Origin: Cytobacillus sp. NCCP-133
GTDB lineage: Bacteria > Bacillota > Bacilli > Bacillales > Cytobacillaceae
Assembly (NCBI RefSeq): GCF_026011715.1
Contig: NZ_BRVM01000002.1
Coordinates: forward strand, 124,001-188,000
Length of the DNA: 64,000 nt
Direction of reading: 5' to 3'
Below the pieces are notes generated by a model. It saw only the letters and a list, made by a program, of their open reading frames with translations, searched no databases and was not told the DNA's origin. This document shows, piece after piece, positions 713 to 2,409 of this stretch; within the stretch, counting starts at the first letter, position 1; each line of letters starts with the position of its first letter. The position numbers were made by a program, and so were the translations under genes.

Positions 713-746
713 GTGATTTTCCTCCTCATAAAATTTTGTTGGTTTT

Positions 747-813
747 TGGTTGGGTTAGCTGGAATTGCACCAGCGCAAGGATCAAATCCTGTTCCACTGC
801 CTGGCTTAACCCA
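747..813 (-). tRNA. tRNA-like RNA (degenerate tRNA-Gln(UUG)-like) in the SASP leader
   Basis: Read on the minus strand from 813, the sequence folds as a small cloverleaf of 67 nt. Acceptor TGGGTTA (813-807) pairs perfectly over 7 bp with TAACCCA (757-751). D arm is CCA-GGCAG-TGG (804-794). Anticodon arm is CAGG / CCTTG around the 7-nt loop ATTTGAT, giving U33, anticodon TTG (785-783) and A37. T arm is GCTGG-TGCAATT-CCAGC (774-758), a perfect 5-bp stem with a 7-nt loop. Discriminator A (750) is followed by an encoded CCA (749-747). Departures from a normal tRNA: position 8 is not T, the anticodon stem has a mismatch or bulge, the variable loop is about 1 nt, and the T loop is TGCAA rather than TTCRA. 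Acceptor and T arm resemble Bacillus tRNA-Gln(UUG) from memory. It lies 34 nt before the SASP start, so it is probably a tRNA-derived regulatory or processed RNA, not a working Gln tRNA. Confidence 0.7.
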
Positions 814-857
814 TCGGTATTGGTGTGCGGTGGCTTGCTGCCGCTGTGTTTACTCTC

Positions 858-887
858 TATTATGTTTGATTTATAAAAGTTTATTCT
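858..887 (-). promoter_or_regulatory. Putative sigma-G promoter of the SASP transcript
   Basis: On the minus strand AGAATA (887-882) and CATAATA (864-858) are separated by 17 nt. This closely matches the sigma-G consensus as I recall it (TGAATA, 17-18 nt, CATAMTA) and suits a forespore SASP gene. Transcription would begin near 850, about 37 nt before the tRNA-like element and 140 nt before the SASP start. Confidence 0.65.
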
Positions 888-1009: not shown

Positions 1010-1252
1010 ATGGCAATTTGCCCTGTTTGCAATGGTTTTGAAAATTTGGAAGCAGCTTGCTGCTCTTGCGGAAAGAAAATGGAGGACAGCGGCAGAATCA
1101 TGGATTTTTACGATGATTACAGTGCTTATATGCCTATTGATCAAATGAAAATGGAAGATGGCTTTCCTCAAGATTTTCAAAAAGAGGAATGTCCGCATCT
1201 TTTGAAATGTCCATCATGCGGCCAGGATTCAGTGATGTTTATAAAAGAGTAA
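1010..1252 (+). CDS. Small cysteine-rich (zinc-ribbon-like) protein, unknown function
   Basis: An 80-residue protein of unrecognised function. It has an N-terminal CPVC (residues 4-7), a CCSCGKKM cluster near residue 18, and a C-terminal ECPHLLKCPSCGQD block (about 60-72). The CxxC pairs suggest one or two structural zinc-binding knuckles. The acidic, aromatic middle (YDDYSAYMPIDQMKMEDGF) contains no domain I know. A GAGAGG ribosome-binding site precedes the ATG, and a strong bidirectional terminator follows, so it appears to be a single-gene unit. It is divergent from the SASP transcript. Similar short proteins are annotated as hypothetical in Bacillus. Coding status is well supported; function is open. 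Confidence 0.75.
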   Translation: MAICPVCNGFENLEAACCSCGKKMEDSGRIMDFYDDYSAYMPIDQMKMEDGFPQDFQKEECPHLLKCPSCGQDSVMFIKE

Positions 1253-1305: not shown

Positions 1306-2409
1306 TTAATGTGAGCGGATTCTGCTTTCCGTTTGGGCATCAAAGAAATGGGCTTTGTTCATATCAAATGCCAGCTCAAGGTTTTGCCCTGGGTTAATAT
1401 CTGTACGGGAATCAACGCGTGCAACGAAATCCTGGCCTTCAATGCTAGAGTAAATCATTGTTTCAGCACCAGTAAGTTCGGAAACGTCAATCCGTGCATT
1501 AATTTTAGAACCTGAGGAAGCATCAATAAAAACAGGTTCGTCATGAATATCTTCCGGGCGTATGCCAAGAATGATATCTTTTCCCACATAGCTTTGGTCA
1601 CGAAGTACCTTCATTTTTCCTCCTGGAACGGTAATTTGTGTTTGGCTGACAACAAACTTTCCGTCTTCAAGCTTGCCGTTGAAGAAGTTCATGGCAGGAG
1701 AGCCTATAAAACCGCCGACAAAAACATTTTCAGGTTTCTCATATACTTCTTTCGGTGCACCAACCTGCTGGATTATCCCATCCTTCATAACAACAAGACG
1801 GGTTGCCATTGTCATGGCCTCTGTCTGGTCATGTGTTACATAGATGGTTGTTGTCTGCAGACGCTGGTGCAGCTTGGCAATTTCTGCACGCATTTGCACA
1901 CGAAGCTTTGCATCTAAATTGGATAATGGTTCATCCATCAGGAAGACTTTTGCATCACGGACAATCGCTCGGCCTAATGCAACACGCTGGCGCTGACCGC
2001 CTGATAAAGCTTTCGGTTTGCGGTCAAGGTATGGTTCAAGCCCGAGGATTTTCGCAGCTTCTTTTACGCGGCGTTCAATTTCGTTCTTTGGAAACTTACG
2101 AAGTTTAAGCCCGAAAGCCATGTTGTCATATACGGACATATGCGGATAAAGGGCATAGTTCTGGAAAACCATCGCGATATCACGATCTTTGGGCGGCACA
2201 TCATTCACACGCTTATCATCGATATAAAAGTCACCCTTTGAAATTTCTTCAAGGCCTGCAATCATACGAAGTGTTGTAGATTTACCGCAGCCTGAAGGCC
2301 CGACAAATACGATAAATTCCTTATCCTGGATGTGGAGATTGAAATCTTCTACTGCAGTAATTTTGTTATCATAGATTTTGTAAATGTGATCTAATTTTAG
2401 TTCAGCCAT
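1306..2409 (-). CDS. msmX: Carbohydrate ABC-transporter ATPase, MsmX/UgpC type
   Basis: A 367-residue ATPase of the MalK/MsmX/UgpC family, which powers several sugar importers from the cytoplasmic face of the membrane. Walker A GPSGCGKST (about 37-45), Q-loop VFQNYALYPHM (about 82), signature LSGGQRQRVAL (about 135), Walker B VFLMDEPLSNLD (about 155) and switch histidine in YVTHDQTEA are all intact. The C-terminal third (from about 240) is the MalK-type regulatory/TOBE domain. No permease or binding-protein gene adjoins it. This fits MsmX of B. subtilis (365 residues), an orphan ATPase shared by several sugar transporters. Starts at ATG after an AGG-rich site; a shared terminator lies downstream. 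Confidence 0.9.
   Translation of the reverse strand: MAELKLDHIYKIYDNKITAVEDFNLHIQDKEFIVFVGPSGCGKSTTLRMIAGLEEISKGDFYIDDKRVNDVPPKDRDIAMVFQNYALYPHMSVYDNMAFGLKLRKFPKNEIERRVKEAAKILGLEPYLDRKPKALSGGQRQRVALGRAIVRDAKVFLMDEPLSNLDAKLRVQMRAEIAKLHQRLQTTTIYVTHDQTEAMTMATRLVVMKDGIIQQVGAPKEVYEKPENVFVGGFIGSPAMNFFNGKLEDGKFVVSQTQITVPGGKMKVLRDQSYVGKDIILGIRPEDIHDEPVFIDASSGSKINARIDVSELTGAETMIYSSIEGQDFVARVDSRTDINPGQNLELAFDMNKAHFFDAQTESRIRSH

Follow-up and report, generated by a model that had tools for sequence, protein, structure and literature searches.

What is an RNA with the outline of a tRNA doing in the leader of a spore protein gene? The question arises from the window analysed here (64,000 nucleotides of the genome of Cytobacillus sp. 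NCCP-133), in which a 67-nt cloverleaf, the tRNA-like element (TLS), lies on the minus strand at 747-813 between a sigma-G-type promoter and a gene for an alpha/beta-type small acid-soluble spore protein (SASP; Table 1). The original prediction had reported this RNA 34 nt before the SASP start; its arms and CCA can be read directly, and the gap from CCA to the SASP ATG (712) is 34 nt. Among sporulation genes those for SASP are classic, and the sspB promoter is often used to report on the forespore; sspB fusions may differ in including the TLS or not. A structured or tRNA-like SASP leader was not found in the openly licensed literature, a scope outside which the subscription ssp papers of the 1980s-90s lie. 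The evidence presented here indicates that in many Bacillus-like bacteria one of the mRNAs for SASP, the protein that covers spore DNA, starts with a preserved tRNA shape; probably this makes the message a target for a tRNA-processing enzyme or for the ribosome during spore formation.

Table 1. Features of the SASP locus in the window (all on the minus strand).
Feature	Position	Strand	Details
Sigma-G-type promoter	858-886	-	-35 GAATA (886-882), 17 bp, -10 CATAATA (864-858)
Leader between -10 box and TLS, ending CCGA	814-857	-	44 nt; about 37 nt transcribed if the start lies about 7 nt past the -10 box (assumed)
TLS	747-813	-	covariance model R1 78.9 bits, E 3.2e-16 (the window sequence is one of the 22 R1 training sequences); covariation
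Acceptor 5' strand UGGGUUA	807-813	-	pairs with 751-757; compensatory change at 6/7 pairs, 98.1% of cells paired (n=82)
D-like hairpin CCA-GGCAG-UGG	794-804	-	3 bp (804-802/796-794), loop GGCAG
Anticodon-arm-like variable hairpin	775-792	-	83.2% of cells paired (n=82); loop variable
T arm GCUGG-UGCAAUU-CCAGC	758-774	-	5 bp (774-770/762-758), loop TGCAATT; 97.3% of cells paired (n=82)
Acceptor 3' strand UAACCCA	751-757	-	partner of 807-813; 7 Watson-Crick pairs in the window
Discriminator A750 and encoded CCA (749-747)	747-750	-	purine N73 in 82/82, CCA in 81/82
Shine-Dalgarno (SD) GAGGAGG	721-727	-	read from the sequence
Alpha/beta-type SASP, 72 aa	494-712	-	Pfam PF00269, E 1.3e-22

A conserved tRNA-like fold

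General-purpose searches pass over the element. ARAGORN found no tRNA gene in the 64-kb window and no Rfam family reached its gathering threshold at the TLS; the tRNA covariance scan of 700-900 proposed in the original prediction came back without a match to the tRNA model RF00005 at E<=10, the five sub-threshold Rfam matches in that interval (best E 0.14, 18.7 bits, on the plus strand) belonging to other models, and RF00005 likewise gave no match at E<=1 in five homologous loci. After the element had been seen, a strict descriptor was composed from a 7-bp acceptor, a T arm of 5 bp, T1 and A5 in the T loop and NCCA; it matched the window once, at 747-813, and 60 dinucleotide-shuffled windows three times in total (0.05 each). 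Folding of the single sequence (z -1.67 and -1.52) is weak evidence that neither proves nor disproves the cloverleaf, and the minimum free energy structure differs from it; the case therefore rests on covariation.

A DNA search of 61 genomes gave a match in 39, and on their alignment the acceptor, T arm and CCA stood out as the fixed parts. A covariance model (R1) was built from 22 sequences and run over 397 genomes of the order (Bacillales). Since real 75-nt tRNA-Gln genes reach 43.8 bits with this model, its E-values are unusable for counting the TLS (at E<=0.001, 361/397 genomes have some match, real tRNA genes included), and we used a cut-off of 44.2 bits, just above the best match of tRNA length (75 nt). 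At least this score was reached in 102 of the 397 genomes, a count that is a floor because true copies also lie below it (e.g. loci L105 and L107).

An alignment referred to as A2 holds 82 matches from 81 sources (the window and 80 loci, near-duplicates excluded, 22 of them the training set), with scores of 42.1-82.4 bits except for one second tandem copy at 37.4. Of the 47 GTDB family labels sampled in the order, 23 are represented, two of them (f19 and f25) by matches below 44.2 bits that are located in SASP leaders. In A2, 91.4% of cells pair and compensatory change occurs at 16 of 19 modelled pairs. Both partners had changed in 206 cells, compared with 54.8 after shuffling and 14 to 38 with slid partners, and the slid structures pair in only 10.6-50.7% of cells. 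These counts lean toward the named structure, since the covariance model itself realigned A2. In the MAFFT alignment A1 (n=22), for which the structure was named by hand, 93.1% of cells pair and 17 double changes stand against 6.1 shuffled, while the number of pair types (12 vs 12.9) shows no excess over shuffles. RNAalifold with default settings retained one isolated pair on A1 besides the acceptor and T stem, losing the other arms because their lengths vary. The acceptors encountered include UGAGUUA/UAACUCA, UGGGCCA/UGGCCCA and AGGGUUA/UAACCCU, and within the genus the mean identity to the window is 0.93 for the TLS, 0.74 for the leader before it and 0.74 for the linker behind it.

That the TLS exists and is under selection is as good as certain, and support for its tRNA-like secondary structure is very good, the D arm having the least. 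The arms are kept in relatives, and their loss there was what the original prediction had named as its refutation; a conserved tRNA-like RNA in a SASP leader is thereby supported. An inert relic of a tRNA gene would agree with likely descent from a tRNA, but is hardly conceivable given the excess of double changes over shuffles and a CCA and T loop kept across many genera; the TLS is an old, selected RNA element. Outside the order, the R1 matches listed for the class are all of tRNA length (75 or 77 nt). Among 28 of 29 SASP loci from six such genomes, R1 matched only inside one tRNA cluster, a result that a divergent element could escape; a seventh genome had no SASP match.

Fixed acceptor half, variable anticodon arm

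The arms are unevenly conserved. The T loop is of 7 nt with U54 and A58 in 82/82 and has C56 in 79/82, and the length from T stem to CCA (the "ruler") is exact in 79/82. The D-like arm is the weakest of the four: its two modelled pairs form in 69.8% of cells (n=82), the drawn stem begins 0-3 nt past the acceptor, and GG occurs in the D loop of 16/81 homologues; 81/82 can be drawn with a hairpin of 3 bp or more, a figure that carries no chance control. The absence of T/U at position 8, pointed out in the original prediction, is confirmed for the window.

The anticodon-like hairpin is where the original prediction and the homologues part company. The U33-UUG-A37 loop read there corresponds to TTTGA, which is found in only 1 of 20 aligned members of the genus, the window itself (TAAAA 9, TTTAA 2, eight other readings). 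Across the homologues, the 74 predicted apical loops range from 3 to 9 nt with 68 distinct sequences, and none is a 7-nt loop with U33. The TLS of loci L102 and L114 (52-54 nt) leave no room for this hairpin and that of L088 (52 nt) almost none. Four further loci (L080, L086, L099, L105) carry long insertions in the anticodon-arm region, so that the whole TLS measures 79 to 111 nt. The UUG "anticodon" of the window is accidental. Since it is not conserved, an anticodon-dependent role does not fit: codon reading by the TLS was rejected or set low, and charging, for which the original prediction had suggested a test, is not credible through UUG. The TLS thus shares with a functional tRNA the 7-bp acceptor, the 5-bp T arm, the 7-nt loop with U54/A58 and NCCA, but lacks a conserved anticodon, a 7-nt U33 loop and a match to RF00005. 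No known family shares every tested feature with it.

Likely descent from tRNA-Gln

Each TLS was set against 27 isoacceptor types taken from five loci of the own genome, and tRNA-Gln(UUG) was the best own-genome match for 77/82 (76 with a positive margin) and tRNA-Trp for the other five. With the acceptor strands removed, tRNA-Gln remained best for only 38/82. Sequence likeness therefore makes an origin from tRNA-Gln likely, though the argument leans on the acceptor. In one locus from another order of the class (L267), a tRNA cluster Ser-Met-Tyr-His-Gln-Cys (1886-2599) lies just upstream of a SASP gene on the same strand (about 1490-1693, minus strand); this single case is possibly the sort of arrangement from which a SASP leader with a TLS could arise.

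The same likeness invites the idea of an amino-acid sensor, in which the TLS would mimic tRNA-Gln and GluRS/GatCAB would charge or read it. Besides the match to tRNA-Gln, U1-A72, a GatCAB determinant, is present in 76/82 TLS; however, 4/82 have A1-U72, the anticodon is not conserved and the 3' end is internal, so that we regard such a sensor as very improbable.

One SASP gene per genome, behind a sigma-G-type promoter

Scored against what we take to be the sigma-G consensus, the promoter of the window reaches 18/18. By the same presumed consensus, 76/82 homologues score at least 15 (15.2 for shuffled upstreams) and 53/82 at least 17 (0.85 for shuffled). Because sigma-G-type promoters precede the TLS, its co-transcription with the SASP gene in the forespore is likely, in agreement with the original prediction. 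The bases just before the acceptor are also biased (814-816, minus strand, in the window and its equivalents in homologues), with C at -3 in 68/82 and A/G at -2 in 79/82; we know of no reason for the C(-3) bias. On the other side, the SD core begins 11-23 nt past the CCA in 77/82 homologues (the 77 being those measured) and an alpha/beta SASP start follows 3-109 nt downstream of the TLS in 82/82.

A gene-independent pattern scan of the named genomes, which overlaps in part with the 82, yielded 105 stretches, of which 80 were examined. All but one of these (79/80) are SASP leaders, the exception being L129, whose record ends after the first codons. A SASP start lies 5-37 nt on in 69/80 (5-75 nt inspected); the other 11 include nine tandem arrays, whose SASP (MAS...) begins 106-138 nt further along, and L133, which shows a SASP start in a shortened record. 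The named hosts include Cytobacillus, Rossellomorea, Metabacillus, Mesobacillus, Neobacillus, Niallia, Heyndrickxia, Anoxybacillus, Priestia koreensis and B. methanolicus, together with the B. subtilis relatives B. halotolerans, B. mojavensis and B. inaquosorum and Bacillus sp. SKDU12. The SASP behind the TLS in the B. subtilis relatives (MANQNSSN...) resembles SspB. Four records titled Sporosarcina globispora, Paenibacillus bovis, Chryseobacterium and Pseudomonas (L143, L175, L181, L187) hold TLS-SASP loci of Bacillaceae type, and are probably misnamed or mixed assemblies.

In each genome checked, a single paralogue among those scanned carries the element. One TLS accompanies the six SASP genes of the own genome, and in seven further genomes, chosen for having a TLS, 30 of 33 SASP loci were scanned and the TLS was found on one gene each (in genome G040 the same TLS falls inside two overlapping loci), which brings the count to 8/8 genomes with 36/39 SASP genes scanned. 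Beside the SASP gene of the window lies an 80-aa cysteine-rich ORF without a Pfam family (1010-1252, plus strand). A homologue of this small ORF is present in 68/80 named TLS loci and the C-terminal end of fumarase in 52/80 (presence within a locus of at most 8 kb), which speaks for one old locus. Spread of the TLS by phages or plasmids was set low; the SASP loci examined, three from phages and one from a P. megaterium plasmid (4 of 113 matching records), lack an R1 match.

Ten distinct tandem arrays of the TLS (L088, L123, L126, L128, L144, L148 [the same locus as L082], L150, L154, L181 and L189) occur in Mesobacillus-type genomes, Neobacillus niacini and one further genome. In these arrays the first copy has the CCA, whereas the second, closer to the SD, has no NCCA after the acceptor and is longer by 1-2 nt between the T stem and the end of the acceptor (CCA status was judged by eye in L144 and L088). 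It is as if one full mimic were needed.

Putative RNase P processing and retention of the CCA

Our preferred reading, with a probability of about two in five, is that RNase P trims the leader, that the CCA blocks RNase Z and that the tRNA-like 5' end protects the SASP mRNA. RNase P would cut between 813 and 814; the encoded CCA would then keep RNase Z away, so that the TLS stays on the mRNA, where its tRNA-like 5' end would shield, and may boost, the message in the forespore. The consensus for pre-tRNA recognition by RNase P consists of a 12-bp stem, the T loop and a 3' RCCA (PMC10731613, in part), and these are the constant parts of the TLS (ruler 79/82, U54/A58 82/82, R73 82/82, CCA 81/82), while the anticodon arm can differ from one TLS to the next or even be absent.

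The leader is constrained as well. Pairing of N-1/N-2 with the RCCA is an RNase P antideterminant (PMC9433436, in part). Two contiguous leader-RCCA pairs are possible in 1 of 135 distinct TLS, against 17.5 expected with N-1 shuffled, and in 0 of 91 clusters, against 10.9; in either set 0/5000 shuffles were as low as observed, a test that ignores phylogeny, although the signal survives clustering. Among the tRNA genes of the own genome, 2/54 allow such pairing. The avoidance would, however, follow equally from any need for a free CCA. The dinucleotides N-2N-1 that are best for the E. coli enzyme (AU, AA, AC) account for 62/135 and the worst (GG, GU, CG, UG) for 4/135, but the commonest, GA (59/135), is outside those named best. 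Both the E. coli and the B. subtilis enzymes prefer U(-1) (PMC10731613, in part), which is not the rule here (A 45, T 18, C 16, G 3; n=82); T occupies N-1 in 33/54 own-genome tRNA genes. The absence of T/U at position 8 in the window and the rarity of the D-loop GG also count against RNase P.

The RCCA need not help cleavage, since its deletion raised the kcat/Km of E. coli RNase P 3.8- and 7.9-fold on two substrates (PMC9433436, in part). CCA is an RNase Z antideterminant (PMC4919913, in part), and keeping it would therefore permit an RNase P cut without the leader being severed. As B. subtilis RppH requires unpaired 5' nucleotides (PMC3997798, in part), a 5' end inside the acceptor helix should be protected. 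Stabilisation of an mRNA by RNase P cleavage has a precedent in pbuE, according to a title cited in PMC10731613 (in part). Against this, cleavage by RNase P produces a 5'-monophosphate that, should the end open, can promote decay, and that the SASP mRNA benefits is wholly inferred. A review places SASP mRNAs within the approximately 50 most plentiful transcripts of dormant spores and considers it very unlikely that SASP must be made anew once spores germinate (PMC7649253, in part), so that a gain from the TLS would lie in sporulation.

The original prediction had the RNA cut out by RNase P. The 5' cleavage is plausible and draws statistical support from the leader-RCCA avoidance, whereas a free RNA of about 67 nt is less likely, because the CCA acts against RNase Z cleavage and any cut on its 3' side would strip the TLS from the mRNA. 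The encoded CCA, the RNase P-compatible 5' side and the conservation of the RNA would all suit excision as a CCA-ended small RNA with its own function, for instance as a tRNA decoy; yet the usual RNase Z exit would be blocked by the CCA (PMC4919913, in part) and the link to one kind of gene is tight and in cis (82/82 upstream of SASP), which makes this alternative improbable. A wider scenario, in which Bacillales turned a tRNA-Gln into an anticodon-free cis element, RNase P became a developmental mRNA processor and an RNase Z-proof cap keeps the SASP message alive through late sporulation, is doubtful as a whole.

A possible effect on translation

SASP are produced in large amounts within a short time, which favours an alternative to RNase P trimming: the TLS would remain unprocessed, fold upstream of the SD, bind the ribosome (perhaps at the E site) and raise SASP initiation. 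This enhancer is a tentative reading, somewhat less probable than leader trimming by RNase P. The short spacing to the SD is in its favour, as are a 2- to 6.3-fold increase of translation in vitro by tRNA-like elements upstream of an SD and the binding of the activator-bound yjdF aptamer to 70S ribosomes with a Kd of about 6-14 nM (PMC9142559, in part). In the same source, however, changing ACCA to UAAU caused minimal loss, yet the CCA is present in 81/82 TLS and pairing of the leader with it is avoided; the yjdF effect also fell near background after mutation of the D-loop GG, a motif found in 16/81 TLS. Enhancement could be all that the TLS does, but it leaves the CCA, the ruler and the leader constraint unexplained. 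RNase P processing and a ribosome-binding enhancer can both be true, and regulation of SASP translation by the TLS, as the original prediction suggested, is possible.

The TLS may instead be a site for another reader of tRNA shape (the CCA-adding enzyme, EF-Tu, a tRNA-modifying enzyme or a forespore protein) that controls the mRNA. Several such proteins require a free 3' end, and we consider this unlikely, even though the acceptor/T half, the elbow loop and a free CCA are what they read (general knowledge; PMC4919913, in part).

Sequestration of the SD by the TLS was rejected, the mean predicted SD pairing with the TLS being 0.027. In the predicted folds the SD pairs with early SASP codons (661-727 of the window, minus strand) to a greater extent than in codon-shuffled sequences (mean 0.384 vs 0.175-0.243). 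This pairing is 0.378 in TLS-bearing genes (n=8) and 0.193 in others (n=19), in a set for which a SASP start was found in 27 of 36 loci, nine being dropped, and in which the start kept for L256 looks wrong. From the modelled folds, it is possible that such pairing would act as a second layer of control.

Relation to known tRNA-like RNAs

The tRNA-like domain of tmRNA and the plant-virus 3' tRNA-like structures, mimics that are charged and sit at an RNA end, have the acceptor, T arm and CCA in common with the SASP TLS, which differs in lying in a 5' leader with its CCA internal. tmRNA is an RNase P substrate (PMC10731613, in part).

The closest parallel in placement is the yjdF riboswitch (PMC9142559, in part), a tRNA-Lys-like four-way junction in an mRNA leader near the SD. 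The likeness is one of secondary structure, which for the TLS comes from covariation. Unlike yjdF, the TLS resembles tRNA-Gln, retains an encoded CCA, is without the long A-rich J1/2 (the purine-rich J1/2 pocket has no counterpart in it), has the D-loop GG in 16/81 where yjdF conserves it, is not predicted to pair with its SD (mean 0.027) and was found here only before SASP genes. The yjdF Rfam model was not among the matches at the window or in five homologous loci. The leader of B. subtilis pbuE (named in PMC10731613, in part) is alike in its proposed stabilising RNase P cut in a B. subtilis-type mRNA leader, and differs in containing an adenine riboswitch where the TLS is a cloverleaf with T loop and RCCA.

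Identity with tRNA-Other of B. cereus, which the original prediction had left undecided, is not borne out. Both are tRNA-like elements within a longer Bacillus RNA, but tRNA-Other has a Trp (CCA) anticodon, adjoins a thioesterase gene and has predicted sigma-A, sigma-B and Fur sites, and reports of its longer transcripts are confined to the B. cereus group; the available part of that paper does not describe a SASP leader setting for it (PMC3399842). The TLS of the window has the loop TTTGA, and its neighbours are SASP and fumarase.

Control by a tRNA-like leader has so far been shown for yjdF and for grafted tRNAs. If our interpretation is true, the occurrence of the TLS in 23 of 47 sampled families would make it a natural and widespread case of such control, which bears on how spore mRNAs reach high abundance. 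Elsewhere in the window, on the minus strand, two known RNA families were recognized, a TPP riboswitch (RF00059, 16135-16237, 75 bits) and a Bacillaceae-1 RNA (RF01690, 34184-34257, 58.6 bits).
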